NCBI GenBank assembly: GCA_016207825.1 | Contig: JACQZI010000025.1 | Coordinates: 1-51,047, forward strand | Length of the DNA: 51,047 bases | Source: Planctomycetota bacterium | Lineage (GTDB): Bacteria; Planctomycetota; MHYJ01; JACQXL01; JACQZI01 | Direction: 5' to 3' | In this document: one piece after another, positions 1,867 through 35,138 of the stretch | Numbering within the stretch: the first letter of the stretch is position 1 | Layout: every line of letters begins with the position of its first letter | The notes under the pieces: model-generated | The model's database searches: none | Told to the model about the DNA's origin: nothing | Seen by the model: the letters and a program-made list of their open reading frames with translations, nothing else | Position numbers and translations under genes: made by a program

Positions 1867-1917
1867 GTTTTTCCTCCTCCTTTGCGCCTTAGCGGTTAAT
1901 ATCTGTATTTAATGTAT

Positions 1918-1934
1918 AGCAAATATCGTGCCAA
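1918..1934 (-). promoter_or_regulatory. Sigma-54 promoter for the left-edge surface gene
   Basis: Read on the minus strand this is TTGGCACGATATTTGCT. GG lies at 1932-1931 and GC at 1920-1919, exactly ten bases apart, as sigma-54 requires. The core matches the four plus-strand sigma-54 promoters in this window. The inferred start of transcription is about 1907, giving a leader of about 40 nt. No TGTYTCATT/AATGAGACA palindrome lies at the 117-bp position seen at the other four. Confidence 0.85.
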
Positions 1935-2037
1935 GATTTCGTGGGAATTGACGGAAAATGATAGGCTATCCAATATGTTTAACTAAAGGAGTTAGAACAA
2001 GACGACTTGTAAAAGCAAAATCAATATTTAGGCGATG

Positions 2038-2074
2038 GTGTGGACAAAATCCACACTGGTTACTTTTTGGTAAC
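2038..2074. repeat. Two adjacent short palindromes between surface gene and activator gene
   Basis: GTGTGGA/TCCACAC with a 5-base loop covers 2038-2056, and GTTAC/GTAAC with a 6-base loop covers 2059-2074, overlapping the activator stop codon. They could end transcription of the activator or act as protein sites for the 1918-1934 promoter. No T-run follows the first hairpin on the minus strand, so a terminator role is uncertain. Confidence 0.4.
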
Positions 2075-4042
2075 AATCTTTAAGCTAATGTTAAAGCGTT
2101 TTATCTTACGGTGTAAACCGGCACGGTCGCATCCTAATTGTTGGGCCGTTTGGGTTATATTACCATTACAACTTTTAATCGTTTCTATAATGGCGTTTCG
2201 TTCCATTTCTTTAAGGGTTAATACATCCTTAACTGTAGGGGCAGAGGCAGGCAGGCAGGTGCGGATTTGATCAGATAACATCGATTCTTCAATAAGTTTC
2301 ACATCGGGATATAAAACGTATATTCGTTTTATTTCGTTTTCAAGCTCGCGGATATTGCCGGGCCAGGGGTAGGCGGAGAAGAGGGAAAGGGCGGAAGGAG
2401 AGACGAGAGATGAGGGACGACCATATTTTTGTAGAAAATGCTGGGCGAGGAGATGGATATCATCCTTTCGGTCGCGGAGGGGAGGAAGATTTATCACTAT
2501 CGTATTGATACGGTAAAACAGGTATTCCCTGAAGAGTTTTCGCTTAACCATTTGTTCAATATCCTGATTGCTGGCAAAAATAAAGCGGGTGTCAACCGGA
2601 ATAGGTTTTTGTCCACCCACCCTCCAGAGAAGTTTTTCTTCCAAAATACGCAAGAGCTTTTGCTGCATTGATGGGGACATATTGGCGATTTCATCTATAA
2701 ACAATGTTCCGCCAGAAGTAAGCTCTATATAACCTTTTTTCTCTTCAATAGCGCCGGTAAAAGCCCCTTTGGTATGGCCGAAAAGGGTGCTTTCGATAAG
2801 TGTGTCAGGCATTGCTCCGCAATTAAAAGGAAGGTAGATTTTGTTTACACGACGGCTATTATTATGTATGGCGTTGGCAATAAGTTCTTTTCCGGTTCCT
2901 GTTTCTCCCTGGATTAAAACCGGCATATCCGTAGGAGAAATCTTTTCCATAAGATGATAAATTTCTTGCATTGCGGGAGAATTGCCAACAATGGTATATT
3001 TAGTAGCCGACTTTTCATAACGGGAAAGAAGGGTTTCAGTAAGAATGCGCGGGATACGGGATTCGCGATGCTGGGAGTTTGGCAATTGGCGGAAGAGTTG
3101 TTCAAATTCCTTGTTTTTTTCATAAAGCCAGGCTGCATCAAGTTTAGTTAAAAGTGGTTTTATCATCTTTTCCATAACCGAAGATTTTTCCGGAAGGTTA
3201 TTCATCATATAGCATCTGCTTAACAGTAACGCCGATTCGCAGATAAACTCGTTCTTCTTCAAACGCCGGGCGTTTTTCAAGATATCCTGCAATATATAGA
3301 TGGCGTTTTTTAAACGCCCTTCTGATAAATCAATTACTGCCAGATGCATATTAGCGGCAAGCATCCCATGAGGATAATTAACTTCATTGCTAATTCTGAT
3401 GCATTCACGGAAAGATTGTTTTGCCTCGCTGTATTTTTCTATGGCTATTTGATATTCTCCTTTGAGATGATGATAATCTATTGAAAACAGCTGGTCGGCG
3501 GAAGTAGATGAAGATAATACCAGATAAGAAGCCATTTTTTCTTCCAGAATCTGGCGTGTTTTCTCCAGCTCGTTTTTTTCCAGATAACAATAGCCCAAGC
3601 TGATGAGAGTTTTTCGGTAGATCATCGGGGATATCCGACCGCCATGTTTTTGGAAGTATTGTTCTATTTTCTGGAGATGAATTAATGCTTGATTGGTGTT
3701 TTTAATGATACGGAGGATATCGCCTATTAACAGCAAGGGATAGGTTGTTTCAACCGGGGGCAACGAATGCCTTAAGGCAATTGAATATGCTTTGTAATAG
3801 CTATTCAATGCATTGGAGTATTCTGACAATCTATAATAAATAGAGCCTAATTTGCTATACAGAAAATATTCTTCGTTTGGTGAGCATGAGAGGGAAGAAA
3901 GTTTCTTTAGAGCAATTTCCCCGTATCGTTTGGCTTTAACCAAATCTTTTTTATCTAAGGCTGATTTGATGTTTTCCAGATAATTGGACAGATTCCCCCG
4001 TTTTGTCGGGGTCACTACAAGTAATGACTTTCGTTTCGGCAT
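2060..4042 (-). CDS. Sigma-54-dependent transcriptional activator with N-terminal TPR repeats
   Basis: 660 aa. Residues about 10-330 are helical and fit several TPR-type repeats (YFLYSKLGSIYYRLSEYSNA and similar). There is no receiver, GAF or PAS domain. The AAA+ domain follows: Walker A GETGTGKE near residue 379, the sigma-54-contacting GAFTGA loop near 426, Walker B TLFIDEI, and the arginine-rich PPLRDRKDDI segment. The C-terminus is a Fis-type helix-turn-helix (GNITQTAQQLGCDRAGLHRK). These features place it among NtrC-class enhancer-binding proteins. TPRs usually bind proteins or peptides, so input may come from a partner rather than phosphorylation. The ATG at 4042 is preferred over an upstream in-frame TTG at 4078 because that TTG is part of a -35 box. 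It is the only sigma-54 activator here and the natural candidate to read the nearby palindromes (inference). Confidence 0.92.
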   Translation of the reverse strand: MPKRKSLLVVTPTKRGNLSNYLENIKSALDKKDLVKAKRYGEIALKKLSSLSCSPNEEYFLYSKLGSIYYRLSEYSNALNSYYKAYSIALRHSLPPVETTYPLLLIGDILRIIKNTNQALIHLQKIEQYFQKHGGRISPMIYRKTLISLGYCYLEKNELEKTRQILEEKMASYLVLSSSTSADQLFSIDYHHLKGEYQIAIEKYSEAKQSFRECIRISNEVNYPHGMLAANMHLAVIDLSEGRLKNAIYILQDILKNARRLKKNEFICESALLLSRCYMMNNLPEKSSVMEKMIKPLLTKLDAAWLYEKNKEFEQLFRQLPNSQHRESRIPRILTETLLSRYEKSATKYTIVGNSPAMQEIYHLMEKISPTDMPVLIQGETGTGKELIANAIHNNSRRVNKIYLPFNCGAMPDTLIESTLFGHTKGAFTGAIEEKKGYIELTSGGTLFIDEIANMSPSMQQKLLRILEEKLLWRVGGQKPIPVDTRFIFASNQDIEQMVKRKLFREYLFYRINTIVINLPPLRDRKDDIHLLAQHFLQKYGRPSSLVSPSALSLFSAYPWPGNIRELENEIKRIYVLYPDVKLIEESMLSDQIRTCLPASAPTVKDVLTLKEMERNAIIETIKSCNGNITQTAQQLGCDRAGLHRKIKRFNISLKIVTKK

Positions 4043-4049
4043 CGCGGGA

Positions 4050-4078
4050 ATTATACAGAAAAAAGGAGTGGTTGTCAA
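4050..4078 (-). promoter_or_regulatory. Sigma-70 promoter of the activator, predicted leaderless mRNA
   Basis: On the minus strand TTGACA (4078-4073), a 17-base spacer and TATAAT (4055-4050) form a perfect consensus promoter. Seven bases separate TATAAT from the ATG at 4042, so transcription should begin at or one base before the start codon. No ribosome site lies between. Confidence 0.8.
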
Positions 4079-6218: not shown

Positions 6219-6274
6219 CTGTCTCATTAACAACCATATTTAACAAGATGTTTAATTTATATTAATGAGACAGT
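6219..6274. promoter_or_regulatory. Upstream activator-site cluster of the YHS operon promoter
   Basis: A half-site TGTCTCATTAA at 6220-6230 is followed by a degenerate palindrome TGTTTAATT...AATGAGACA at 6249-6272. The outer arms also form a 12-bp inverted repeat. The palindrome starts 223 bp before the -24 GG of the sigma-54 promoter. The rest of the 5960-6655 gap is AT-rich and contains no gene I can support. Confidence 0.75.
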
Positions 6275-6354
6275 AATAAAAACGGCTAAATATGGTTTTT
6301 ATGCTTGTTTTATGCGCTAAACCCATATAAAACGCTATTTGGCCGTTTATAAAG

Positions 6355-6384
6355 TGTTTCATTAGGTGTTTTTTTATAGAAACA
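6355..6384. promoter_or_regulatory. Promoter-proximal activator site, YHS operon
   Basis: TGTTTC...GAAACA with an 18-base centre. The site starts 117 bp before the -24 GG at 6472, the same offset found at three other promoters in the window. The left half is well matched (TGTTTCATTA); the right half is weaker. Confidence 0.7.
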
Positions 6385-6469: not shown

Positions 6470-6486
6470 TTGGCACGGTATTTGCT
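6470..6486 (+). promoter_or_regulatory. Sigma-54 promoter of the YHS/porin/ferritin operon
   Basis: TTGGCACGGTATTTGCT with GG at 6472-6473, GC at 6484-6485 and exactly ten bases between. Transcription should start near 6497. The leader of about 160 nt contains a GAGGCC/GGCCTC hairpin (6617-6636) just before the ribosome site at 6644. Confidence 0.88.
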
Positions 6487-6655
6487 TATATACATAATAA
6501 ATAGGTAACCATTCGCTAATGTGATAGGCGTATGGAAGGCCTGATTAGTTTTATAGTGAAGGAAAGGAGGGGATAATAGCAGTTAACGGGATAACCAAAG
6601 TAAACAAAGTTAAATAGAGGCCTTTATCTTGGCCTCAAAATATGGAGGAATGAAT

Positions 6656-7561
6656 ATGAGGAAAGGGATAGTAATGCTGGTAATTGCCCTGGTAACTTTC
6701 GCAATGGGATGCTCCCAGACAATGTATGAATCAAAGCCGGATAAAACCAAAACGGAAAAGCCCGTCATGAAACCTGATATGATGCAAAAAAAGGCCGCGG
6801 ATAAGGTCACACCCCATACTATCAAGGCTAATGAAATCGGCAAGGAAGTAATCTGCACGGTCATGAAGGTCCCCTGCACGGTTGACGAAAATACTCCGGC
6901 GCTGGAATACAAGGGCAAGGTCTATTATTTCTGCTGCAACAATTGTCCGAAGATGTTCATGGAAGATCCGGATAAATATGCGGTAAAAACAGAAGTTACC
7001 CCCCACGCAATCACGGCTGATGAAATCGGCAAGGAAGTAACCTGCCCGGTCATGAAGGTCCCCTGCACGGTTGATAAGAATACATCTGCCCTTGAATACA
7101 AAGGCAAGGTTTATTATTTCTGCTGCAACAATTGCCCGAAAAGGTTCATGGAAGACCCGGATAAATATGCGGCACAATCTGAAATCAAAGCGCATTTCAT
7201 CAGTGATGAAGAAGTGGGCAAAGAAGTGAGGTGCACGGTTATGGGCGGGACGTTCAAGGTGGAGAAAGATACCCCGGCACTGGAATACAAAGGCAAGGTC
7301 TATTATTTCTGTTGTTACAATTGCCCGGAGAAGTTTAAGGAAAATCCGGATAAATACGCAATCGAATCACAGGTTAAGGCGCATTTCATCAGCGATGAAG
7401 AAATCGGCAAAGAAGTAATCTGCCCGGTTATGAAAGGGACTTTCACAGTGGATAAGGAAACCCCGGCCCTTGAATACAAAGGCAAGGTTTATTATTTCTG
7501 CTGCTACAACTGCCCGAAAAAGTTCATCGCAGACCCGGATAAATATGCGTCAAAAGATTAA
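6656..7561 (+). CDS. Lipoprotein with four tandem YHS (TRASH-like) metal-binding domains
   Basis: 301 aa. Start chosen at 6656, seven bases after GGAGG (6644-6648); the ATG at 6650 is too close to it. A signal peptide ends in the lipobox FAMGC, so Cys19 should be lipidated. Four YHS-type units follow with an exact 189-bp (63-aa) period. Each has the order GKEV.C.VM, then YKGKVYYFCC..CP, then F...PDKYA. Units 1-2 carry an extra cysteine (VPCTV); units 3-4 replace it with GTF. YHS domains occur in heavy-metal handling proteins and as metal-binding tags, so the protein probably binds copper or iron in the periplasm. The units are also alike at DNA level, showing recent internal duplication. It is the first gene of a sigma-54 operon with a porin and a ferritin-like lipoprotein. 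Confidence 0.9.
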   Translation: MRKGIVMLVIALVTFAMGCSQTMYESKPDKTKTEKPVMKPDMMQKKAADKVTPHTIKANEIGKEVICTVMKVPCTVDENTPALEYKGKVYYFCCNNCPKMFMEDPDKYAVKTEVTPHAITADEIGKEVTCPVMKVPCTVDKNTSALEYKGKVYYFCCNNCPKRFMEDPDKYAAQSEIKAHFISDEEVGKEVRCTVMGGTFKVEKDTPALEYKGKVYYFCCYNCPEKFKENPDKYAIESQVKAHFISDEEIGKEVICPVMKGTFTVDKETPALEYKGKVYYFCCYNCPKKFIADPDKYASKD

Positions 7562-7626
7562 TGAACAAAATGAAAGTGATTGATTTAACTTAATCTCGTT
7601 TGATAATAATGAAAGGAAATGAAAGA

Positions 7627-8856
7627 ATGGCAGTGAAAACAACATGCTTACTATTGCTTTTAGGAACGATTTGCCTGTTTAGTTATTCGGCATTTGCCGA
7701 GGATGATTTCAAGCCGTCGATGAAATTCACGAACTCACGCTTCTCCGCCGGATATATAGATTCCGAGAGGAACGGCAGTTATTCGGCCGGCTCCTATTAC
7801 ATGCCCGATGCAAGATTGGAATTCAATTGGCTAATGAGCCCTGATGCAACCGTTCATGTCAGGATGAACCTGAACAACGCCAAGTTTACCGGAATGTGCT
7901 GTTTTTACGTAGAGTTGCGTAACCTGGCGGCTAATATTTCGCCGTCGTTGAAAGACAGCGCGTTTAACCCGTCCATTTGTCTCGGACAGTTTAAAATGGA
8001 TTTCGGGGAGGAAAATTTCTCCAATGACCCGACCAACGGAGTGCTCATTTCCAATTCAGCGGCAAATATTGCCGGCATGGACGAAGGTTTGAATATAAAC
8101 CAGGTGCTGCCTAAAGAAACGCTCGGGTTTCCCGCCAGATGGTCTTTGAGCTTTCATAACGGCAATACCACAGCCGCCGGCGGCGATAATACCCAGTCCA
8201 AGGCGGTTATTTTGAAACTATCCGCCCTTCCCTTGACGGCATTGTACGTTTCCGGCAGTTACTATAATTCCGGCGACTTAGGTGTGCAGGATGCGGCTTT
8301 AGGGTGTGGCGGTTTGGTCACCCGCCCGACGAACGCCACGGAATGGACGCGCAATATCTGGGAAGTTGATTTGCGCTATGATATCGAGCCGGGCAGTCAG
8401 TCTGACCATAAGCAAAGCAGGAGCAGCTGTTGTGCGGAGATAAATAGCAGCGGGATTTTACCCGGCCCGCCGGCTTTTTCGGATAGCAAGGCCTTTGTCA
8501 GGCTGGCTTACGGCAAATTTACCGACGACGGCAAAGACAGGCTTGCGCCGGTTCTCAAAGTAACCGAGCGGGAAGGTTCTTATTATTACCTGGAAGGATG
8601 TTATAACGCCACCAAGAAGGTATACCTGGGTGCCCGTTATAGTTTCATCGGGTTTGATAAGTCGGATATGTTTGCTTCGCTTAACGGTGTTAATGCCAAT
8701 GACTATACCAGGATCTCGGCTGGTCCGGGCTATCGGTTATCCAAAAATACCCACATTAAGGCAGAGTATTCCGTTGATTCTGAAAAGATGCCGACCGGAG
8801 TGTCTGAACCCAAGAATAATCAGATTGCGATTTTATTTACAACCTTGTTTGATTAG
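7627..8856 (+). CDS. Outer-membrane porin-like beta-barrel protein
   Basis: About 409 aa. A clear signal peptide (CLLLLLGTICLF...SAFA, then EDDF) precedes a sequence of alternating polar and aromatic strands ending in IAILFTTLFD, an aromatic beta-barrel C-terminus. Internal glycine/tyrosine strands (KVYLGARYSFIGF, GPGYRLSKNTHIKAEYSV) fit a 14-18 strand porin. I cannot assign a named porin family with certainty; carbohydrate- or phosphate-selective porins are the nearest look. The start at 7627 follows AAGGA by nine bases; 7609 is an alternative. Cysteines are unusually frequent for a porin (GMCCFY, SSCCAE). Its place between two metal-related lipoproteins suggests passage of metal or a metal complex (inference). 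Confidence 0.75.
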   Translation: MAVKTTCLLLLLGTICLFSYSAFAEDDFKPSMKFTNSRFSAGYIDSERNGSYSAGSYYMPDARLEFNWLMSPDATVHVRMNLNNAKFTGMCCFYVELRNLAANISPSLKDSAFNPSICLGQFKMDFGEENFSNDPTNGVLISNSAANIAGMDEGLNINQVLPKETLGFPARWSLSFHNGNTTAAGGDNTQSKAVILKLSALPLTALYVSGSYYNSGDLGVQDAALGCGGLVTRPTNATEWTRNIWEVDLRYDIEPGSQSDHKQSRSSCCAEINSSGILPGPPAFSDSKAFVRLAYGKFTDDGKDRLAPVLKVTEREGSYYYLEGCYNATKKVYLGARYSFIGFDKSDMFASLNGVNANDYTRISAGPGYRLSKNTHIKAEYSVDSEKMPTGVSEPKNNQIAILFTTLFD

Positions 8857-8871
8857 GAAAGGATACCCCGT

Positions 8872-9432
8872 ATGAAGAGAATGAAATGGGGCTGCATTGA
8901 TATGATGCGCCTGGCCATGGCGGTTATTATGGTGTTGAGCATCATCGTCACTGGATGCTCCGCCGCTTCGGCAAATAAAGAAGTTGTTGACCAAGGCGCG
9001 GGAAACCAAACCCCGTCCGAAGAATTAAAGGATTTGCTTAATCGGGGCATTGCCCGGGAGCTGAGGGTTTCCATCCAGTATATGTGGCAGCATATCATCT
9101 GCAACGATGCGGAAAGCCAGGAGTTCCAGAACGAACTAAGGTCGATTGCCGTCAACGAAATGGGCCATGCAAAAGCCATTGCCGAACGGTTGTATGCTTT
9201 GGGCGGCGTTCCGACGACCAAGTCCGAAGATGTTACTGTCGGAAGCAGCCTTAAAGAGATGTTTGAAAACGACAAAAGGGAAGAAGCCGGTGCGCTTAAA
9301 TTATACACGAGAACAATCGAACTTGCCGGCAAACTGGGCGATGAAATAACCGTTCGATTATTCAGGAAAATCCTGCAGGATGAACAGGAGCATTACGACA
9401 CCTTCAGCGCCTTTTTGGAAAAGGTAAAGTAA
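8872..9432 (+). CDS. Ferritin-like (bacterioferritin-type) lipoprotein
   Basis: 186 aa. A hydrophobic segment ends in the lipobox IVTGC (Cys29), so this is an exported lipid-anchored protein. The rest is a four-helix ferritin-like domain with di-iron ligand motifs: E in RELRVSIQY, then EMGHAK, then E in KREEAGALK and DEQEHYD. Cytoplasmic bacterioferritins and rubrerythrins share this E, ExxH, E, ExxH pattern; a membrane-tethered periplasmic version is uncommon. It may oxidise or store iron or remove peroxide at the envelope. It is the third gene after the YHS lipoprotein and porin and is followed by a perfect GC-rich palindrome. Confidence 0.88.
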   Translation: MKRMKWGCIDMMRLAMAVIMVLSIIVTGCSAASANKEVVDQGAGNQTPSEELKDLLNRGIARELRVSIQYMWQHIICNDAESQEFQNELRSIAVNEMGHAKAIAERLYALGGVPTTKSEDVTVGSSLKEMFENDKREEAGALKLYTRTIELAGKLGDEITVRLFRKILQDEQEHYDTFSAFLEKVK

Positions 9433-9436
9433 AACT

Positions 9437-9468
9437 CCATCCCCCCGGCATTAATGCCGGGGGGATGG
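9437..9468. terminator. Perfect 32-bp palindrome, probable bidirectional terminator
   Basis: A 16-bp arm rich in C and G (CCATCCCCCCGGCATT) pairs perfectly with the following 16 bases, five bases after the ferritin-like stop. There is no T-run, so it may stop RNA polymerase with a factor or protect 3' ends. Confidence 0.6.
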
Positions 9469-9550
9469 TGCTCCCTTAAAATATCGGATAAAACAGCCAT
9501 CCGTTTACTTCTTATAATACCAATTTCTGCGCGTACATTTCGTATTTAAC

Positions 9551-9592
9551 TGTCTCACTTAATACTAAGTTTCATTTATATTAAAAGAGACA
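9551..9592. promoter_or_regulatory. Upstream activator-site cluster of the winged-helix operon
   Basis: Half-site TGTCTCACTTAA at 9551-9562, then 17 bp later a palindrome AGTTTCATTT...AAAAGAGACA (9568-9592). The palindrome starts 232 bp before the -24 GG. The 9433-9882 gap otherwise holds only the terminator, the second site and the promoter. Confidence 0.72.
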
Positions 9593-9682
9593 GTTTGGGC
9601 TTCATGATTTAATGCGCTTTCACCCTAATATCCTGTAATTGTTGATGTTATACCATCCCTTTCTATATGGATTAGATTAAGC

Positions 9683-9797: not shown

Positions 9798-9814
9798 TTG
9801 GCACGATATTTGCT
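9798..9814 (+). promoter_or_regulatory. Sigma-54 promoter of the 9.9-22.6 kb gene run
   Basis: TTGGCACGATATTTGCT, GG at 9800-9801 and GC at 9812-9813 with ten bases between. Predicted start of transcription near 9824. Confidence 0.88.
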
Positions 9815-9882
9815 TATAAAGATAAATGTTATTACGGCGTAATGCCGGTGTGGTAGATTTTAATGAAAGGGGGTGAAAAGAG

Positions 9883-10146
9883 ATGGGAAAATGTTCTGCT
9901 AAATCATTTCCAAAGGGGCAGATGATGAATGTCCGTGCCGATGTTGGTAGCGCCGCAGGGAAGCTCTGGCAATATCTTTCCAAAAACGGCGTATCCAGCC
10001 TTGAGGACTTAAGCTGCCAGGCTGATATTGACTGCGATTTAGCCAAGCTGGCGGTTGGTTGGTTAGCCAGGGAAGATAAGGTTTGCCTTAGCCGGGATAA
10101 GAACGATACGTATATCCGGTTATCCGATTCCGAAGTAAGGGTATAA
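9883..10146 (+). CDS. Small winged helix-turn-helix protein (DUF2582-like)
   Basis: 87 aa, preceded by a strong purine-rich ribosome site (AAAGGGGGTG). The core AAGKLWQYLSKNG..SLEDL and LAVGWLAREDKVCL matches the short winged-helix family typified by GKIWY..L...G.....L and LALGWLAREDK. A close relative in this window lies at 39510. Members are thought to be DNA- or protein-binding winged helices of unknown target. This copy has a Cys-containing N-terminal extension (MGKCSAK) and two more cysteines in the helix region (SCQADIDC), so redox or metal control is possible. First gene after a sigma-54 promoter. Confidence 0.82.
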   Translation: MGKCSAKSFPKGQMMNVRADVGSAAGKLWQYLSKNGVSSLEDLSCQADIDCDLAKLAVGWLAREDKVCLSRDKNDTYIRLSDSEVRV

Positions 10147-22768: not shown

Positions 22769-22769
22769 C

Positions 22770-22810
22770 TGTTTCATTTCATTGCTTGTCTCATTTAGAT
22801 TAGTGAGACA
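22770..22810. promoter_or_regulatory. Upstream activator-site cluster of the multicopper oxidase operon
   Basis: Half-site TGTTTCATTT at 22770-22779 and, 17 bp on, the best palindrome in the window, TGTCTCA...TGAGACA (22787-22810, perfect 7-bp arms). It starts 214 bp before the -24 GG. Confidence 0.78.
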
Positions 22811-22882
22811 GGGGTAAATCCATTATTCGCCGGTTTAGCCCTTTAATAAGTATTTAAAATGGAGTTTTGGTATTTGTGAGTG

Positions 22883-22911
22883 CGTATCATTAAGATTACT
22901 TAAATGAGACA
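22883..22911. promoter_or_regulatory. Promoter-proximal activator site, multicopper oxidase operon
   Basis: CGTATCATTAA...TTAAATGAGAC, starting 118 bp before the -24 GG at 23001. Confidence 0.75.
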
Positions 22912-22998
22912 ATATGGATTTTGACTAAAAAGTAGATTTCCATATTTAACGACCTGATTTCCAAAGGGTTAAGTAAGTTAATAAAATTTTACCATTGG

Positions 22999-23015
22999 TT
23001 GGCACACTTTTTGCT
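22999..23015 (+). promoter_or_regulatory. Sigma-54 promoter of the multicopper oxidase operon
   Basis: TTGGCACACTTTTTGCT, GG 23001-23002 and GC 23013-23014, ten bases apart. The block between site and promoter resembles that before the 34341 promoter (AA.GGGTTA..TTAGTTAA-like). Confidence 0.86.
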
Positions 23016-23098
23016 TAATAGATAACTAACTATGTTATTACGAGATAAATTAATGAATGACGTATCGTTTATTATAATAAAGATAGGAGGAGAAGGAA

Positions 23099-23185: not shown

Positions 23186-26100
23186 ATGAAAAAAGAGGAA
23201 ATCTCACCAAACCAGGTAACAAAGTTAATGCTTACACTTATTATGGTCATTGCCTTAACGGGCATGGGTATCTATATGCTTTACGGGCAAGACCAGGATC
23301 CGGATACAACGGCCGGTTCAAGCACCGAGGGGCAGGAGGAAGTTACGATTACGGCGGATGAACCGCTTTCTACAACAAACCCTGCGCTTATGACGCTTGA
23401 CCAGTTGAAAGAACGGGCAATAAAGCGCTTTGAGGCAAAGCGCGCCCTGCCTGAGTTACGCAGGAAAGCCGCCGAAAGGCTTGCTCAAAATGGCACAAGC
23501 GGCGCAATGGGCATGCCCCAGCAGGGAATGCCGCCGATGCCCGGCGGGACGCCGAATTATTTCGGTCCAGAGCCCAACTGGGCATATAGCCCGCAACTTA
23601 CTAAATTCGTAGATTCGCTTCCCGGCCTGGGATATGCCAACAGGAATAATCTCGGGCAATATATACCCGTAGCTGTCCCGGACAAGACGGCTTACGCGGG
23701 CTGTGATTATTACGAAATCGGTGTAACCGACCATTCTGAACAGATGCATTCTGAGTTAGGGATGACCAAGACCAGGGGATATTACCAGATAAACTCTGCC
23801 GACCCAAACGTTACGGCAAAGCATTATCTTGGGCCCTTAATTATAGCCAACCGCAATACTCCTATCCGCCTGAAATTCGTCAATAACGTGGCAACCGGCA
23901 CCAATGGCGCCTTGTTTTTACCGGTTGATACCACGGTCATGGGCGCCGGTATGGGACCTCTGGGCGGAATGGAAATGTATCCGGAAAACCGTGCCGAGCT
24001 TCATCTCCATGGCATCTTTGCCCCGTGGATTAGCGATGGGACGCCTCATCAGTGGATTACCCCGGCGGGCGAACCTACTTCTTATCCAAAGGGCGTAAGT
24101 ATGTTCAATGTTCCGGATATGCCTGACCCGGGCGCAGGCGCTTCAACATATTATTATCCTAACCAGCAGAGCGCCCGTTTTATGTTCTACCATGACCACT
24201 CATTCGGGATTACACGCCTTAATGTCTATGGCGGGGAAGCCGCGGGTTATATTTTGAGAGACCCGGTATTAGACGACCCCGATGCACCGGGAAGCATGCT
24301 TTCAAGGGGCGTTATTCCGGCAGACGAGCTTCCTTTAATCATCCAAGATAAGACCTTTGTGGATGCAACGACCATTACGGCTACAGACCCGACCTGGAAC
24401 TGGGGTTCGACCCCAGGCATGCCTATGACCGGAGACCTCTGGTTCCCGCATGTATATATGCCTAACCAGAATCCTAATTCAGAAGACGGGATGAATGCAA
24501 TGGGCAGATGGGATTATGGCCCTTGGTTTTGGCCGCCAACAACTGTGCAGTATACTACCCTGCCGCATCCATCCATGGCAATGGAAGCCTTTATGGATAC
24601 GCCGGTGATTAATGGAACGGCATATCCTTATGTGGAACTCCAGCCCAAGGCATATCGTTTAAGGATATTAAATGCGTGCAATGACCGCTATGTAAATTTA
24701 CAGTTATATTATGCGGATACAGGTGATGGCATAAGCGCGACCGCTACGGCAGCATTAGCCGGCACCCAAGTTAGCGCTATTAACGTAACTGACGGCGGTT
24801 CAGGCTATACTTCAGCCCCTACCGTATACATCTACGGCGGCGGCGGCTCTGGCGCGACAGCTACGGCAACCATAGCAGGCGGCGCGGTGACCGGCATTAC
24901 GGTAAACACTCCCGGCACCGGCTATGCCTCTGCACCGACTATCCTGGTAGGAAGCGCCAAGGAAGTAAAAATGGTTCGTGCCGACGGGCTTGCTTATGAT
25001 ACGCCTTATGGCCCTTATACGGTTGAATATGACGGCCGATTTGGCGGCGTTCCCGACCCGAGACGAGCCGGTCCAAAGATGGTCCAGATAGGAAATGAAG
25101 GAGGGATTCTTCCTAACCCGGTAACACTCAATGCCCCGCCTGTTCCAATCGGCTATGACTTTGGATATAAAACAATGACACTTGGTAATGTCGAGTCGTA
25201 TAATCTTTACATGGGACCGGCAGAACGTGCCGATGTTATCGTAGATTTTTCCGCGGTAACGCCCGGCGCTACTTTGATTCTCTATAATGATGCACCGGCT
25301 CCATTGCCTGCAGGCGACCCGCGGTTTGATTTCTACACAAACAATGAGGATACGACTGCCAACGGCGGCACGGCTCCGACACTGCCGGGTTTTGGCCCAA
25401 ATATCCGGACTATGATGCAGATACGCATTACAGGGACCGCCTCGGCGCCATTTAACTTTACCGCGCTGGATACGGAAATTCCAACGGCTTATCTTGCGAC
25501 ACAGCCGGCGCCTTTGGTCCCGCAAGTGGATTATCCCGGCGCTTACAGCGCGACAGCAAATACGTATGCCCATATCCATGACGGTTCGATGACCTTTACC
25601 CCAACCGGGACAAGTTCACCCATTACAGTTGCATTCCAATCAAAGGCAATAGTTGAGGAATTTGAGCTCACCTATGGCCGTATGAATTCACAATTGGGAA
25701 CGGAATGGTGGATTATCAATAACCAAGGACAGCAAACCAATGGTTTTGCCTATGTGGATCCGGTAACAGAAGTATTGCCAGAAGGTGAAATCCAGATATG
25801 GAAGATAGTCCATAACGGTGTGGATACCCATGCCATACACTGGCACCTTATTAACGTGCAGGTGCTTAACAGGACCGACTGGGCAGGCGTGATAAAACCG
25901 CCGGACCCGAACGAATTAGGCTGGAAAGAAACTGTTAAAATAAATCCTTTAGAAGATACTTTTGTTGCCGTGAAATCAGCCCGGCCTTCGGTTCCATTTG
26001 CAGTTCCGGATAGCGTCCGGCCTTTGGACCCGACAATGCCGATAGGGACGGTGATAGGGACAAATCCATGGGCGTATACAGATGCCCCGACCATAAACGA

Positions 26101-27469
26101 AGTAGTTAATTTTGGCTGGGAATACGTCTGGCACTGCCACCTTCTGGGACATGAAGAAATGGATATGATGAGACCGCTCTCCATGAAAGTTGCGGGTGGC
26201 GGACCGTTTGAGCCCGATGCCCCTATATCACTTACTGCCGTAGCCAACGGCCCCAATGAGGTGAGGCTTAATTGGGTGGATAACGCAACTAATGAGCTCA
26301 TGTTTATCGTCCAGCGGAGCAACAACGGGATTCTTGCTTTTACCAATATAGGGAATGTCTTCGGGAATATAACCAGCTATACTGATTTAACAGCTGGACC
26401 GGGAACTACATACGCATATCGTGTTTACGCTTACAACAATGCAGGGCTTTCCCAGCCGTCAAATACGGTAGAGGTAACAACCCCCGGAGTGGTAACACCC
26501 GGAGCGCCGACCAGTGTAATCGCCATAGCCGGCAATTCCCAGGCAATTGTGGGTTTTGTTGCACCTGCACAAACCGGTGGATCTCCCATTACGTTATACA
26601 CGGTAACCTCAAACCCGGGCGGCATAACAGCTACAGGAAATGCAAGCTCGATCATCGTAACCGGTTTGACCAACGGGACACCCTATAATTTTACGGTTAC
26701 TGCAAGGAATGTCGCCGGGACAGGTCCGGCTTCAACGCCTTCCAATACCGTAATACCTGCCACAGTCCCCGGAGCGCCGACCAATGTAACTGCTATAGCC
26801 GGTGTCGGAAGGGCAACGGTTGTCTTTACACCGCCTGTGTCAGACGGTGGTGACCCGATTGTTTCCTATACGGTGACCTCGGTTCCCGGCAATATCGTAG
26901 CAACCGGGACAGCGAATCCTATAACCGTAAACGGGCTTAACGCAGGCACGGCTTACCAGTTCAACGTGAAAGCAACTAATACGGTTGGAACAGGTCCGGC
27001 GTCTACGCTTTCCAATAGTGTAACACCGACACAACCGACCGTTCCCGGAAGGCCTACCAATGTACGGGCAAGGGCAGGTAACGGCAGGGCAACCGTAACG
27101 TTTAATTGGCCTCAGAACGATGGCGGACGCAATATCACAGGGTTTAGGGCAACCGGTAGGCGCCGTAATGCCCAAGGCGGTTTAATCTTTGCAGGGGCGG
27201 TTACAACCGACGTAACAGCCACGGGACCGGACAGCCCCATAGAAGTAACGGGATTAGTTAACGGTTTTTACTATGATTTTGTCGTAGAGGCAATAAACGA
27301 AGTAGGGACAAGCGCGGCATCCGACCCTTCCCCGGTCGTCAGGCCTTTGGCATCCACAGCGCCGGATAAATCCAACAATAAAAAATGCGGTCTGCTTGGA
27401 CCCGAGCCGTTTGTCTTGCTCGGACTGCTCATGCTTTTAAAGAAGAAAAGGAAAAACATAAGAAGTTAA
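23186..27469 (+). CDS. Giant extracellular multicopper oxidase with four FnIII domains and C-terminal tail (copy 1)
   Basis: 1427 aa. A signal/anchor helix (LTLIMVIALTGMGIYMLY) is followed by an acidic linker and a charged helix. The oxidase core has all four copper motifs: HLHG (His273), HDHSFG (about 336), HAIHWH (about 882) and HCHLLGHEEMDMM (about 983), so T1, T2 and T3 copper sites look intact. Residues about 513-590 interrupt the second cupredoxin domain with two GGSGYTSAP-type units. Four fibronectin III domains occupy about 1010-1395. The end reads KKCGLLGPEPF, a hydrophobic run and a lysine/arginine tail, like a cell-envelope sorting signal. The likely role is extracellular oxidation of a metal (Mn, Fe or Cu) or organic substrate using O2; substrate unknown. 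Next to a close tandem paralogue. Confidence 0.93.
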   Translation: MKKEEISPNQVTKLMLTLIMVIALTGMGIYMLYGQDQDPDTTAGSSTEGQEEVTITADEPLSTTNPALMTLDQLKERAIKRFEAKRALPELRRKAAERLAQNGTSGAMGMPQQGMPPMPGGTPNYFGPEPNWAYSPQLTKFVDSLPGLGYANRNNLGQYIPVAVPDKTAYAGCDYYEIGVTDHSEQMHSELGMTKTRGYYQINSADPNVTAKHYLGPLIIANRNTPIRLKFVNNVATGTNGALFLPVDTTVMGAGMGPLGGMEMYPENRAELHLHGIFAPWISDGTPHQWITPAGEPTSYPKGVSMFNVPDMPDPGAGASTYYYPNQQSARFMFYHDHSFGITRLNVYGGEAAGYILRDPVLDDPDAPGSMLSRGVIPADELPLIIQDKTFVDATTITATDPTWNWGSTPGMPMTGDLWFPHVYMPNQNPNSEDGMNAMGRWDYGPWFWPPTTVQYTTLPHPSMAMEAFMDTPVINGTAYPYVELQPKAYRLRILNACNDRYVNLQLYYADTGDGISATATAALAGTQVSAINVTDGGSGYTSAPTVYIYGGGGSGATATATIAGGAVTGITVNTPGTGYASAPTILVGSAKEVKMVRADGLAYDTPYGPYTVEYDGRFGGVPDPRRAGPKMVQIGNEGGILPNPVTLNAPPVPIGYDFGYKTMTLGNVESYNLYMGPAERADVIVDFSAVTPGATLILYNDAPAPLPAGDPRFDFYTNNEDTTANGGTAPTLPGFGPNIRTMMQIRITGTASAPFNFTALDTEIPTAYLATQPAPLVPQVDYPGAYSATANTYAHIHDGSMTFTPTGTSSPITVAFQSKAIVEEFELTYGRMNSQLGTEWWIINNQGQQTNGFAYVDPVTEVLPEGEIQIWKIVHNGVDTHAIHWHLINVQVLNRTDWAGVIKPPDPNELGWKETVKINPLEDTFVAVKSARPSVPFAVPDSVRPLDPTMPIGTVIGTNPWAYTDAPTINEVVNFGWEYVWHCHLLGHEEMDMMRPLSMKVAGGGPFEPDAPISLTAVANGPNEVRLNWVDNATNELMFIVQRSNNGILAFTNIGNVFGNITSYTDLTAGPGTTYAYRVYAYNNAGLSQPSNTVEVTTPGVVTPGAPTSVIAIAGNSQAIVGFVAPAQTGGSPITLYTVTSNPGGITATGNASSIIVTGLTNGTPYNFTVTARNVAGTGPASTPSNTVIPATVPGAPTNVTAIAGVGRATVVFTPPVSDGGDPIVSYTVTSVPGNIVATGTANPITVNGLNAGTAYQFNVKATNTVGTGPASTLSNSVTPTQPTVPGRPTNVRARAGNGRATVTFNWPQNDGGRNITGFRATGRRRNAQGGLIFAGAVTTDVTATGPDSPIEVTGLVNGFYYDFVVEAINEVGTSAASDPSPVVRPLASTAPDKSNNKKCGLLGPEPFVLLGLLMLLKKKRKNIRS

Positions 27470-27654: not shown

Positions 27655-30600
27655 ATGAAAAAACTTGAGTTACTATTAAACACGATAACTAGATTTATGC
27701 TTGTATTTATCCTGGTTATTGCCGTAACCAGTTTGGGTATCTATCTGGTTTACGCGCAGGATGATGACCCGGATACAATATCCGGTTCAAGTTTCCAGGC
27801 GGATATAACACTTGACCAATTTAAAGAACGGGCATTAAAACGCTTTGAGGCAAAGCGCGCCCTGCCTGAAGCACGCAGGAAAGCCGCCGAAAGGCGCGCC
27901 CAAAATGGCACAAGCGGCGCAATGGGCATGCCCCAGCAAGGGATATCTCCGATGCCCGGCGGGACGCCGAATTATTTCGGTCCAGAGCCCAACTGGGCAT
28001 ATAGCCCGCAACTCACTAAATTCGTAGATTCACTGCCCGGCCTGGGATATGCCAACAGGAATAATCTCGGGCAATATATTCCGGTAGCTGTTCCTGACCA
28101 GACAACTTATTCGGGCGCTGATTATTACGAAATCGGAATAACCGACCATTCTGAACAGATGCACTCCGGTTTGTCACCGACTAAAACCAGGGGATATTAC
28201 CAGATAAATTCTGCCGACCCGAACGTTACGGCAAAGCATTATCTTGGCCCTTTAATCATAGCCAAGCGCGATGTTCCTGTCCGCCTTAAATTCGTCAATA
28301 ACGTGGCAACCAGCACCGCGGGCAGTTTATTTCTGCCGGTAGATACCACGGTCATGGGTGCCGGAATGGGGCCGATGGGCGGAATGGAAATGTATACGCA
28401 GAACCGCGCCGAACTCCATCTCCACGGAATCTTTGCCCCATGGATAAGCGACGGCACGCCGCACCAGTGGATTACACCGGCCGGTGAAGTTACCTCATAT
28501 CCCAGAGGCGTAAGTATGTTCAATGTCCCGGATATGCCTGACCCGGGCAATGGCGCCCAGACATATTATTATCCTAACCAGCAGAGCGGACGTTTAATGT
28601 TTTATCACGACCACTCATTCGGCATTACACGGCTTAATGTCTATGCCGGAGAAGCATCCGGTTATATTATAAGAGACCCGGTATTGGACGATACTGATGC
28701 ACCGGGAAGCATGGTTTCAAGAGGCGTTATTCCGGCTGACGAGATTCCGTTAATCATTCAGGATAAGACTTTCGTGGACGCGACCACGATTACCGCAACC
28801 GACCCGACCTGGAATTGGGGCGCGACACCTGGTAGTCCGATAACCGGCGATCTCTGGTTCCCGCACGTTTATATGCCGAACCAGGACCAGAATTCACCGA
28901 CAGGAATGAATGACTTGGGCAGATGGGATTACGGGCCCTTGGTTTGGCCGCCCACGCCGGTACAGGATCCTGTTTTGCCTGATACATCCATGGTCATGGA
29001 AGCCTTTATGGATACGCCTGTAGTTAATGGCACTGCGTATCCTTATGTTACCCTTCAGCCCAAGGCATACCGCTTTAGGGTATTGAATGCCTGCAATGAC
29101 CGTTTCCTGAATTTACAGTTATATTATTCTGATACTGGTAACGGCATAAGCGCTACAGCCACGGCAACAGTGGCAAGCGGCGCTGTGACCGGCATTAACG
29201 TTACTAACGGCGGTTCAGGTTATACCTCTGCTCCTACTATTTATATATACGGCGGCGGCGGAACAGGTGCAACCGCCAGTGCGACAATAGCCGGAGGCGC
29301 TGTAACGGGCATCACGGTAAACACTCCCGGCACAGGTTATGCCACTGCGCCGACTATTTTGGTGGGAAGCACCAAAGAAGTTAAAATGGTGCCGGCGGAC
29401 GGCGCTACCTATAACGGGCCTTATGGTGCTTACACAGTCAAGAATGACGGAAGAGACGGAGGCGTGCCTGACCCGACCAGAGCCGGTCCTAAAATGGTCG
29501 TTATTGGGAATGAAGGAGGCATTCTGCCCAAACCGGTAACGCTCAATGCCCCGCCGAATCCCATAAGTTACGACCACGCTCCCAAGACAATGACGCTTGG
29601 TAATGTTGACGGGTACACGCTTTATTTAGGGCCCGCGGAACGTGCCGATGTTATCGTGGATTTTTCCGCGGTTCCGGCCGGTGCGGCTTTAATACTTTAT
29701 AATGACGCGCCCGCGCCTCTTCCGGCGGGCGACCCTCGTTACGATTATTATACGGGCAATGGTGATGAAACCGCGACCGGCGGCTCAACACCGACAGTGC
29801 CTGAATTAGGCCCCAATACGCGGACAATCATGCAAATCCGTATAACCGGAACTGCCTCGGCGCCGTTTAATTTTACCGCGCTTGATACGGAGCTTCCAGC
29901 GGCATACCTGGTAACCCAGCCGGCTCCGCACGTTCCGCAACCGGATTATCCCGGAGTTTATAGCGCTACGGCAGAAACGTATGCTCACATAATGGATACT
30001 TCATTAACATTTATCCCAACCGGCGCCAGCGCGCCGATAACGGTTTCGCTCCAGTCCAAGGCAATTGGCGAAGATTTTGAAGAAGAGTACGGCCGCATGA
30101 ATGCCCGTCTCGGAACCGATTGGTGGATTATTGTCGCCGACGGCGGGCAGGGGTTTGGGTTCGCTTACTTGGACCCGCCTACCGAAGTCTTGCCTGAAAA
30201 TGAAGTGCAGATATGGAGGATTGCTCATTACGGAGTGGATACCCACGTTATCCATTGGCATTTGGTAAATGTGCAGGTAATAAACCGGGTTGACTGGGCA
30301 GGCGTGATAAAAGCGCCTGACCCTACGGAACTCGGCTGGAAGGAAACGGTTAAGGTTAATCCGCTCGAAGTGATTATTGTCGCCGTGAAATCTTCCAAAC
30401 CCACTTTGCCTTTTGCCATTCCGGACAGCGTCCGGCCTCTGGACCCGACATCGCCTATTGGCGCGATAATCGGCACAAATCCCTGGCCATACACGGGAGT
30501 TCCAATAATAAATCAGATAGTTAACTTCGGCTGGGAATATGTTTGGCATTGCCATATTCTGGGGCATGAGGAAATGGATATGATGAGGCCTCTGGTCATG

Positions 30601-31308
30601 AAAGTTCCGGGCGGCGGACCGTTTGAGCCGAGCGCGCCGGTAATGCTTAATGCCGTTGCCAACGGTCCTAATGAGGTAGCGCTTAATTGGACGTATAATT
30701 CAAATAACGACCCTATGTGTATTTCTATTATTCAGCGGACCAATACCGGTCCGATGGCCTATACTACCGTTGGCAGGATTGCGGGAAGTGTAACCAGTTT
30801 TACAGATAATACGGTTGGTCCGGATACGACATACACATATTGCGTTTATGCTTACAATAACGGCGGGCTTTCCCTGCCTTCGAATACGGCAAGCGCGACA
30901 ACAGGAGCTGTAACCACCCCAAGTGCGCCGACCGGCGTAATTGCTGCAAGCGGTAGCGGACAGGCCACCGTAAGTTTTGCCGCGCCCGCTCAAACAGGCG
31001 GCACTCCGATTTTGTTATACACGGTGACTTCAAATCCAAGCGGTATAACTGCAACCGGAATTTCAAGCCCCATTATCGTGACCGGTTTGACCAATGGTGC
31101 CTCGTATAATTTTACGGTTAAAGCAACGAACCTGCTTGGGACAGGTCAGGTTTCAGGTGTGTCCAATACCGTAACTATAGGAGCGGTTGCAACGGTTGCC
31201 GCCGATAGAAAAAGCAACAGCAAATGCGGCCTGCTTGGACCAGAGCCGTTTATTCTGCTCGGGTTGCTTATGCTTTTAAAGAGGAAAAAGAAAAATATAA
31301 GAGGTTAA
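27655..31308 (+). CDS. Giant extracellular multicopper oxidase with two FnIII domains and C-terminal tail (copy 2)
   Basis: 1217 aa, clearly a tandem paralogue of the gene at 23186. The copper motifs HLHG, HDHSFG, HVIHWH and HCHILGHEEMDMM are all present, as is the inserted GGSGYTSAP module. The 210-residue shorter length is explained by two FnIII domains instead of four. The end is KCGLLGPEPFILLGLLML then basic residues, nearly the same as copy 1. A stretch near the 5' end (27840-28077) is almost identical in DNA to 23400-23660 while later parts differ at many silent sites, suggesting gene conversion. AAAGAGGAG precedes ATG 27655. Substrate as for copy 1, possibly diverged. Confidence 0.93.
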   Translation: MKKLELLLNTITRFMLVFILVIAVTSLGIYLVYAQDDDPDTISGSSFQADITLDQFKERALKRFEAKRALPEARRKAAERRAQNGTSGAMGMPQQGISPMPGGTPNYFGPEPNWAYSPQLTKFVDSLPGLGYANRNNLGQYIPVAVPDQTTYSGADYYEIGITDHSEQMHSGLSPTKTRGYYQINSADPNVTAKHYLGPLIIAKRDVPVRLKFVNNVATSTAGSLFLPVDTTVMGAGMGPMGGMEMYTQNRAELHLHGIFAPWISDGTPHQWITPAGEVTSYPRGVSMFNVPDMPDPGNGAQTYYYPNQQSGRLMFYHDHSFGITRLNVYAGEASGYIIRDPVLDDTDAPGSMVSRGVIPADEIPLIIQDKTFVDATTITATDPTWNWGATPGSPITGDLWFPHVYMPNQDQNSPTGMNDLGRWDYGPLVWPPTPVQDPVLPDTSMVMEAFMDTPVVNGTAYPYVTLQPKAYRFRVLNACNDRFLNLQLYYSDTGNGISATATATVASGAVTGINVTNGGSGYTSAPTIYIYGGGGTGATASATIAGGAVTGITVNTPGTGYATAPTILVGSTKEVKMVPADGATYNGPYGAYTVKNDGRDGGVPDPTRAGPKMVVIGNEGGILPKPVTLNAPPNPISYDHAPKTMTLGNVDGYTLYLGPAERADVIVDFSAVPAGAALILYNDAPAPLPAGDPRYDYYTGNGDETATGGSTPTVPELGPNTRTIMQIRITGTASAPFNFTALDTELPAAYLVTQPAPHVPQPDYPGVYSATAETYAHIMDTSLTFIPTGASAPITVSLQSKAIGEDFEEEYGRMNARLGTDWWIIVADGGQGFGFAYLDPPTEVLPENEVQIWRIAHYGVDTHVIHWHLVNVQVINRVDWAGVIKAPDPTELGWKETVKVNPLEVIIVAVKSSKPTLPFAIPDSVRPLDPTSPIGAIIGTNPWPYTGVPIINQIVNFGWEYVWHCHILGHEEMDMMRPLVMKVPGGGPFEPSAPVMLNAVANGPNEVALNWTYNSNNDPMCISIIQRTNTGPMAYTTVGRIAGSVTSFTDNTVGPDTTYTYCVYAYNNGGLSLPSNTASATTGAVTTPSAPTGVIAASGSGQATVSFAAPAQTGGTPILLYTVTSNPSGITATGISSPIIVTGLTNGASYNFTVKATNLLGTGQVSGVSNTVTIGAVATVAADRKSNSKCGLLGPEPFILLGLLMLLKRKKKNIRG

Positions 31309-33696: not shown

Positions 33697-33806
33697 TTAA
33701 CTCAGACGATTGTTGGGCAACAACAACGAATCAACTAATATCGTATTGTCAACAGAGAAGGTTTAGTGTACAACAAGGTGGAGTGAGGGCCGTAGGGGTG
33801 GATTAT

Positions 33807-34030: not shown

Positions 34031-34114
34031 GGCAGATATATATAGGAGGGGATTCTCTTCCCTCTTTTTGTACAGTTAATCTTCTTTAGATCCCGTCCTT
34101 GGTTTTGTATAAAC

Positions 34115-34155
34115 TGTTTCATTTGGGTGGTTGTATCATTTTTATTAATGAGACA
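34115..34155. promoter_or_regulatory. Upstream activator-site cluster of the redox-stress operon
   Basis: Half-site TGTTTCATTT at 34115-34124 and, 17 bp on, palindrome TGTATCATT...AATGAGACA at 34132-34155, starting 211 bp before the -24 GG. Confidence 0.78.
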
Positions 34156-34225
34156 GACATAAATACGTTTTTGTTAATTCTATATCTCATAATACGTTAT
34201 AAATAGCTATCTTGATGTTTATAGG

Positions 34226-34253
34226 TGTTTCATTAATCGCCTTAAATGAGACA
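34226..34253. promoter_or_regulatory. Promoter-proximal activator site, redox-stress operon
   Basis: TGTTTCATTAA, five bases, then TTAAATGAGACA. One of the best copies, starting 117 bp before the -24 GG at 34343. Confidence 0.8.
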
Positions 34254-34340
34254 ATATAGAGGTTTTAAACGATAGCGAATTGTTTGCTTAAACACATGAT
34301 TTTAAATGGGTTAGATTAGTTAACAGTATTTTAACAACCG

Positions 34341-34357
34341 TTGGCACGATATTTGCT
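34341..34357 (+). promoter_or_regulatory. Sigma-54 promoter of the 34.4 kb redox-stress gene run
   Basis: TTGGCACGATATTTGCT, GG at 34343-34344, GC at 34355-34356. Predicted start near 34367, about 38 bases before the ATG at 34405. Confidence 0.9.
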
Positions 34358-34404
34358 TATATAAATAGTAACAGTTGTCGTATGTAAAAATAGGAGAAGA
34401 GCAA

Positions 34405-34884
34405 ATGGGGAAAAAAGCCAGAGAGATTGTAGGGATTGACTTGAATGATTTGGTCAAGGATTTAAACCGGGCTTATTGTGATGAGTGGTTGGCATATTAT
34501 GCCTGGTGGTATATGGCGCAGTCGGTTGAGGGTAAAGGGTATGAGGATATGGCTGAATTCCTGAATAAAATTGCCAAAGACGAGTTGGAGCATGCCCAAG
34601 AATTAGCGGAAAGGATTATTGAACTCGGCGGACTCCCGACCAATAAATTAAGCGCCATCGAATCCAACGCAAATAATCCATATCCCGGCGTTATGGAAAA
34701 CCTGGGTGATTATGATGAGATAATAAAATTAGTTACGGATGCCGAAGCAGGCGCGATTGAAGTTTATAATAAAATAGCCGGCAAAACCTTTGGCAAAGAT
34801 CACGATACCTATCAATTAGTAACCCATATTATGGGAGAAGAGATAGGGCATGAAGAGATGTTTGAAAACTTAAAAGAACGATAA
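34405..34884 (+). CDS. Ferritin-like di-iron protein (Dps-like/bacterioferritin-related)
   Basis: 159 aa from ATG 34405, after TAGGAGAAGAG. The four-helix di-iron pattern is DEWLAYYAWWYMAQ, then KDELEHAQELAERI, then DAEAGAIEVY and GEEIGHEEMF. This resembles the Dps-like ferritin-fold proteins of anaerobes and archaea, which use peroxide to oxidise and store iron. No rubredoxin-like C-terminus is present, so it is not a complete rubrerythrin. It is the first gene under a sigma-54 promoter, ahead of superoxide reductase and flavodiiron genes. Confidence 0.9.
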   Translation: MGKKAREIVGIDLNDLVKDLNRAYCDEWLAYYAWWYMAQSVEGKGYEDMAEFLNKIAKDELEHAQELAERIIELGGLPTNKLSAIESNANNPYPGVMENLGDYDEIIKLVTDAEAGAIEVYNKIAGKTFGKDHDTYQLVTHIMGEEIGHEEMFENLKER

Positions 34885-35138
34885 TGATGACAACCGTGAT
34901 TAATCAAAATATAAAAGAAGCCTTGAGGCTTGCCCGGGAACTGGTTATCCTGGCAGATAAAGGCGAAGCCGCGAGCAAGGATGATGGATGCAGGGTGCTT
35001 TACAGTATTATCCGCGACTGCGCTTATAGTATCCGTGTCCACGTAGAACGCGAACGTGAGGAGCATAGGAAAAAGGGCCTCTGGCTGATTTCAGACGGTC
35101 CGGATAATAACGGGGAAGATAATTCCAATAAGAATTAA
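34884..35138 (+). CDS. Small helical protein of unknown function
   Basis: 84 aa. The ATG shares a base with the ferritin-like stop (TAATG), so translation is probably coupled; ATG 34887 is equally possible. The sequence is an amphipathic helix (IKEALRLARELVILADKGE), a helix with RVHVEREREEHRK, and an Asp/Asn-rich tail. No family recognised. It may partner the ferritin-like protein. Confidence 0.6.
   Translation: MMTTVINQNIKEALRLARELVILADKGEAASKDDGCRVLYSIIRDCAYSIRVHVEREREEHRKKGLWLISDGPDNNGEDNSNKN

Follow-up and report, generated by a model that had tools for sequence, protein, structure and literature searches.

A Putative Lipid-Anchored Mini-Bacterioferritin-Like Protein in a Planctomycete Sigma-54 Operon with a Common Enhancer

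Introduction

Ferritins are generally taken as working inside the bacterial cytoplasm. A locus of a Planctomycetota bacterium (GCA_016207825.1) raises the question of what a ferritin could do outside it: at positions 6470–9432 of contig JACQZI010000025.1, a ferritin gene with a lipoprotein signal follows the genes of a YHS lipoprotein and a porin. The window is the whole stretch analyzed, 51,047 nt, and corresponds to contig C25 of the host genome (G000; 2.9 Mb, 97.6% complete). The order of the host sits in the Planctomycetota, Brocadiia, and this group is poorly studied. An earlier note on this DNA had described these three open reading frames as an envelope metal-handling operon, and their description is confirmed by the Pfam YHS and ferritin domains and by a perfect sigma-54 site. 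We give an even chance to the reading that the trio is a sigma-54 operon in a small metal- and oxygen-stress regulon of an anaerobe, providing envelope defense by an exported ferroxidase and a soft-metal binder. The system proves more interesting in its regulation, and less conserved in its gene order, than the earlier note had it.

The Window Ferritin

The ferritin, 186 amino acids long, scores 99.6 bits against PF00210 (cut-off 24.5) and 54.7 bits against the Bacterioferritin model TIGR00754, which is under the NCBIfam cut-off of 125.55. Its best relatives in the PDB are the Desulfovibrio bacterioferritin and the Methanoperedens mini-bacterioferritin (mBfr). All six ferroxidase ligands (E18, E51, H54, E93, E126 and H129) are kept, as are both the haem-binding Met52 and His29. 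Three residues are replaced: Gly34 by Asp, Glu56 by Lys and Glu127 by Gln. The 80 closest relatives, all loci of other genomes and the nearest sampled from 84,980 species genomes, have Glu56 and Glu127 without exception (80/80) and Gly34 in 79 cases, with one gap.

The protein starts with a signal peptide and a lipobox (...VLSIIVTGC-S) with the cysteine typical of bacterial lipoproteins; it is probably attached to the membrane, outside the cytoplasm. This lipobox and that of the YHS protein were called by inspection. No signal peptide or lipobox was found among the 80 closest relatives (0/80), and about 25 further ferritin loci of the phylum likewise have no signal at the start. An apparent lipobox in three relatives (L171, L208 and L212) was rejected, as the reading began upstream of the start codon. 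The claim that a membrane-fixed ferritin is rare thus stands for the mBfr lineage; it is not made for ferritin-like folds generally. In the literature, nothing relevant was found on periplasmic or lipidated bacterioferritins or on YHS lipoproteins.

In the structure model, which is a monomer, a signal helix is followed by a disordered segment (25–44) and a confident bundle (48–185). The last modeled helix spans residues 158–185 of 186, leaving no place for an E-helix or a C-terminal extension. A Foldseek comparison with the mBfr structure 9qq5 gave a TM-score of 0.94 (1.3 Å, 36% identity). The tree places the window ferritin inside a 44-row mBfr-type clade (support 99/98), on a long branch (1.09 vs. 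a median of 0.2); the mBfr type protein stands near the base, where its branching is poorly resolved.

The mBfrs were defined in a 2026 paper as 12-mers of a four-helix bundle only, with a haem Met52 (PMC13168243). The signature proposed there consists of His29, Gly34, Met52 and the absence of terminal extensions; the primary function is listed as unknown, and signal peptides, lipoproteins and the periplasm are not mentioned in the main text (PMC13168243). With the mBfr of "Ca. Methanoperedens carboxydivorans" (9qq4/9qq5), the window ferritin has in common the bundle without an E-helix, the six ligands, Met52 and His29. On the contrary, the signal peptide, lipobox and linker, which together form an N-terminal extension of 47 residues, are additions, Gly34, Glu56 and Glu127 are replaced, and the protein is exported by prediction. 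Because two tested features of the signature, Gly34 and the absence of an N-terminal extension, are lacking, we call the window ferritin mBfr-like and do not class it among the canonical mBfrs.

The best sequence match in the PDB, the bacterioferritin of Desulfovibrio desulfuricans (1nf4), carries Asp34 and Gln127 as well, but belongs to a separate clade of the tree. According to the literature, it is a 24-mer with an E-helix, and we know of no export signal in it. MbfA brings a ferritin-like di-iron domain to the membrane too; there, a transmembrane exporter domain holds the di-iron domain on the cytoplasmic side, whereas the bundle of the window ferritin would be exported and anchored by a lipid. 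The weak NCBIfam match to MbfA in the window is that of another protein, DpsL, and not of this ferritin.

A second mBfr of the host, encoded on contig C10, is cytoplasmic and shows the complete signature; hence, the window ferritin appears to be an additional, exported and divergent copy. If it is lipid-anchored with all its catalytic residues, iron oxidation and peroxide removal would be placed at the envelope. Another kind of N-terminal extension, Cys-rich and desulforedoxin-like (MKKTKKTEIKKGTKYVCKVCGLTVTVDNVCGCAEAHPIICCGTEM), was seen in a WOR-3 mini-bacterioferritin (L155:6869-7492).

Operon Layout

The three genes are co-directional on the plus strand, between the sigma-54 promoter and a strong hairpin (Table 1). 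The intergenic gaps are 65 and 15 nt, and no terminator was found inside the unit on the plus strand. Each start codon (6656, 7627 and 8872) has a good Shine-Dalgarno spacing; that of the YHS gene, at 6656, is a refined position and lies 7 nt after a GGAGG. The leader has no Rfam match to an RNA element. The promoter was searched as TGGCAC-N5-TTGC with the GG/GC spacing, and the reversed pattern served as a control: at up to one mismatch, the host genome contains 31 sites, compared with one for the control, so that the pattern is enriched. The layout supports the trio as a single transcription unit driven by the sigma-54 promoter, and the earlier note, which had read it in this way, is borne out by the short gaps, the lack of an internal terminator and the closing hairpin.

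The YHS Lipoprotein and the Porin

The first gene encodes a protein matching PF04945 in four stretches (125.1 bits, cut-off 30.3), with a signal peptide and a lipobox cysteine (MRKGIVMLVIALVTFAMGC-S, VTFAMGC). Each repeat is about 63 residues long and bears C-x2-M and CC-x2-C. The closest pairs are repeats 1–2 (79%) and 3–4 (74%); the protein therefore grew by duplication. Tandem-YHS exported proteins, with three to five copies, occur in other Planctomycetota (e.g., G383 and G378), and a fourfold repeat is therefore no novelty in itself; those proteins have other domain contexts, and neither a porin nor a ferritin is adjacent in the stretches read.

Closest to it are lipoproteins with a single YHS domain, encoded inside heavy-metal efflux operons of the CusA/CusB type in the host genome (C27), in G009 of the same genus, in G004 and G003 and, beyond the order, in the more distant planctomycete G290. 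They have the lipobox, C-x2-M and CC-x2-C in common with the trio protein. They differ in having one domain instead of four and in being linked to efflux pumps, not to a porin and a ferritin. Because of these operons, the YHS lipoprotein probably binds a soft metal, most likely Cu(I). The claim of an unusual lipid-anchored ferritin together with metal-binding folds outside the cytoplasm is thus supported, by prediction, from the lipoboxes and the YHS and ferritin domains.

The porin is more difficult to place. Its score against BBP2 (PF07642), 21.6 bits, is below the cut-off of 26.2, and the match to Porin_4 is also sub-threshold. The model has 16 strands, with a low confidence (pLDDT 57), and its structural matches are only suggestive. 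The phosphate porins OprP/OprO occupy ranks 1, 4 and 6 in the structure search and are 16-stranded barrels as well, a weak likeness at ~12% identity and with such a model. Among 392 genomes of the phylum, homologues are almost confined to the host's order, and in their contexts there neither a YHS lipoprotein nor a ferritin was found alongside. Two relatives adjoin TupA-type tungstate transport genes and one paralogue a PHO4 phosphate transporter; further ones lie near molybdenum enzymes. As the relatives adjoin tungstate or phosphate transporters, the suggestion that the porin brings in iron or copper is unsupported, and by analogy the protein is less likely to import metals than to form an oxyanion channel. 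The mature part has seven Cys, compared with zero to two in ten homologues: CC pairs at residues 91–92 and 268–269, one of which falls in a 15-residue insertion, and single Cys at 118, 227 and 325.

A Common Enhancer and Its Sigma-54 Regulon

The earlier reader missed that the trio is one of four sigma-54 units of the window with a common enhancer (Table 1). The weak proximal half-site of the trio, at −116, has the same position as at two other window promoters, and half-sites recur at −116 and −98 of enhancer-bearing promoters. In pattern-based searches across the host genome, the core TGTCTCAYTWA has 10 sites: eight at the four window promoters, one at a promoter on contig C5 and one elsewhere. 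Nine out of the ten lie within ~300 nt upstream of a sigma-54 promoter, and 5 of the 31 sigma-54 promoters carry the core. As the motif was derived from the window sites, there is some circularity in their clustering; independent support comes from the C5 promoter and from a cluster in the genome G006, described below. The enhancer delimits a defined, testable regulon, in which mBfr, DpsL, YHS lipoproteins and multicopper oxidases would answer to a common signal.

Table 1. Features of the trio operon and of the other enhancer-linked units in the window (annotations are predictions).
Feature	Position	Strand	Remarks
Distal enhancer (upstream activating sequence, UAS)	6219..6273		Perfect inverted repeat CTGTCTCATTAA...TTAATGAGACAG; 251 and 208 nt upstream of trio promoter
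Weak proximal half-site	6354..6365	+	GTGTTTCATTAG; 116 nt upstream of trio promoter
Sigma-54 (−24/−12) promoter of trio	6470..6487	+	TTGGCACGGTATTTGCTT; perfect match to pattern
Lipoprotein with four tandem YHS domains	6656..7561	+	301 aa, 19 Cys
Beta-barrel porin, 16 strands	7627..8856	+	409 aa; 7 Cys in mature protein
Lipid-anchored mini-bacterioferritin-like ferroxidase	8872..9432	+	Signal peptide, lipobox Cys29, 18-residue linker, four-helix bundle 48-185
GC-rich hairpin closing trio operon	9437..9468		14 bp, z = -5.3
Enhancer of second sigma-54 unit	9550..9593
Sigma-54 promoter of winged-helix gene	9798..9815	+
DUF2582 winged-helix protein	9883..10146	+	Homologues in ferritin/oxygen-defense clusters of G006 and G003
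Enhancer half-sites of third sigma-54 unit	22769..22912
Sigma-54 promoter of multicopper oxidase genes	22999..23016	+	One mismatch
Large multicopper oxidase with fn3 domains	23186..27469	+	Canonical copper-ligand motifs HLHG, HDH, HWHL, HCHLLGHEEMDMM
Second large multicopper oxidase	27655..31308	+	HCHILGHEEMDMM
Enhancer half-sites of fourth sigma-54 unit	34114..34254
Sigma-54 promoter of DpsL gene	34341..34358	+
DpsL-like ferritin	34405..34884	+	No haem Met
84-aa protein	34884..35138	+	52% homologue inside enhancer-linked G006 cluster

In the third unit, the two large multicopper oxidases, exported by prediction and with complete copper motifs, are accompanied by a peptidase. The rest of the window contains thiol peroxidase, hemerythrin, desulfoferrodoxin, flavodiiron-type, rubrerythrin, thioredoxin-reductase and thioredoxin-like genes; from such an oxygen-defense gene set, the host is probably an anaerobe. 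The fifth enhancer-bearing promoter (G000:C5:12300-15500, L093) drives a 575-aa Ig-like surface protein.

The small proteins of these units were also seen elsewhere. The family of the 84-aa protein has no Pfam match; its gene lies 3' of DpsL in the window, and in G006 it has DUF2582 as a neighbor within the mBfr cluster. In G003 (L082), a ferritin-like gene is clustered with those of DUF2582, desulfoferrodoxin, peroxiredoxin, a response regulator and a sigma-54 activator. DUF2582 thus seems to be a recurrent ferritin partner in the host's order.

Conservation in Other Genomes

The exact three-gene order was not found in any other genome examined through the porin, ferritin and YHS searches. 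A conserved order, which would have favored the earlier proposal, was looked for and not found in these genomes: where the ferritin is linked elsewhere, it is cytoplasmic, and the porin elsewhere is unlinked. What recurs is a part of the system. In G006, from another family of the same order, the same enhancer site is found 264 nt before a sigma-54 promoter, and a co-directional cluster follows. It encodes a phasin-like protein, DUF2582, a homologue of the 84-aa protein, a YHS lipoprotein, rubrerythrin, a flavodoxin resembling WrbA, rubredoxin and an mBfr that is cytoplasmic. As site, promoter and both genes are repeated there, the linkage of YHS lipoprotein and mBfr with a common enhancer holds, at the sequence level, in two families of the order; the porin linkage and the export of the ferritin are peculiar to the host. 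Apart from G006, the relatives have their enhancer sites at a distance from sigma-54 promoters, and these were taken as background.

Proposed Function

Under oxygen, peroxide or metal stress, an activator would bind the CTGTCTCATTAA repeats and switch on the four window units together: the trio operon, the winged-helix regulator, the two exported multicopper oxidases and the DpsL ferritin. The exported ferritin would most likely oxidize and hold envelope Fe(II), using up peroxide or oxygen and thereby averting Fenton damage; a haem or coprohaem at the dimer interface would serve as the electron outlet. The YHS lipoprotein would hold Cu(I) through its C-x2-M and CC-x2-C sites, and the porin would let in some small solute; to judge from its family, this would be an oxyanion such as phosphate. 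The multicopper oxidases may handle Cu(I) or Fe(II) outside, and DpsL would work inside the cell. Of the periplasmic metal buffer of the earlier note, the metal-binding folds outside the cytoplasm remain, joined by the enhancer-linked exported multicopper oxidases and DpsL; a stand-alone buffer does not, the setting being rather that of an oxygen- and metal-stress regulon.

Several points weigh against this reading. The trio occurs in one genome only, so that comparison does not prove joint action. The loss of Gly34, Glu56 and Glu127 makes the assembly of a 12-mer cage, and with it iron storage, uncertain. Moreover, the 12 lipid anchors of a cage, on 18-residue linkers, cannot all enter one flat membrane; the changed interface residues and this geometry make a tethered dimer possible instead of a cage. 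The replaced residues allow a direct test of cage assembly versus function. The neighboring TPR-type sigma-54 activator (2060–4078), with its own sigma-54 promoter at 1934 on the minus strand, is unsupported as regulator of the trio: it is one of many paralogues beside their own promoters, and most such activators of the host adjoin a promoter driving a surface protein.

A further step would be to see here a new extracytoplasmic ferritin branch: a lipid-tethered, haem-binding mBfr, perhaps a membrane-bound dimer and not a closed cage. Its partners in a sigma-54 regulon would be a copper sponge made of several YHS domains, the porin with its Cys residues and multicopper oxidases at the surface, and the regulon would oxidize and park envelope iron and copper when the anaerobe meets oxygen. 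This is put forward tentatively.

The reading as a metal- and oxygen-stress regulon has to be weighed against a primary defense against copper or soft metals, in which the YHS protein acts as a sponge for Cu(I) in the periplasm, the multicopper oxidases oxidize Cu(I), and both ferritins only limit the ensuing iron and peroxide damage. Single-YHS lipoproteins do accompany CusA/CusB-type efflux, two multicopper oxidases with full copper motifs stand under the common enhancer, and the porin has gained Cys pairs missing from ten homologues. However, no Cus/CopA efflux gene was seen with the enhancer, the genome-wide list having no site on C27, which carries the host's own Cus operon; of the four enhancer units, two contain a ferritin gene, and the enhancer-linked cluster of G006 is rich in oxygen-defense, not copper, genes. 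We regard a primarily copper-directed function as rather unlikely.

The trio could also consist of ordinary oxidative-stress genes, the N-terminal extension of the ferritin being recent and functionally unimportant and the porin a bystander. The confinement to a single genome, the rule of cytoplasmic ferritin relatives, the unlinked porin homologues and the long ferritin branch (1.09) would fit. Against it, signal peptide, lipobox and linker are of textbook type, the bundle is confident with six ligands kept despite the long branch, the second, cytoplasmic mBfr makes the exported copy an addition, and the first gene of the operon encodes a lipoprotein too; the probability left to this explanation is small. 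An equally small one goes to an extracytoplasmic iron economy, in which exported mBfr and multicopper oxidases oxidize Fe(II) or Mn(II) at the surface for storage, mineral formation or electron transfer and not for defense: the di-iron, haem-binding ferroxidase and the oxidases are both predicted to be exported and have a common enhancer, but no multihaem cytochrome or iron-oxidation partner is present in the unit, the setting is an oxygen-defense island, and the mBfr of the enhancer-linked G006 cluster is cytoplasmic.

Other Sigma-54 Elements

About 15 TPR-AAA-Fis sigma-54 activators were seen in the window (1–4078) and elsewhere in the host genome, most of them next to a sigma-54 promoter of a surface protein. 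They form a large modular set of private activator–promoter pairs. Between activator and promoter, there is often a small protein of ~80 aa with the pattern CPPLT..DI..RGKP. Upstream of the DpsL promoter, at 33750–34050 of the window, degenerate tandem repeats of tatgggatacacgggt are visible.

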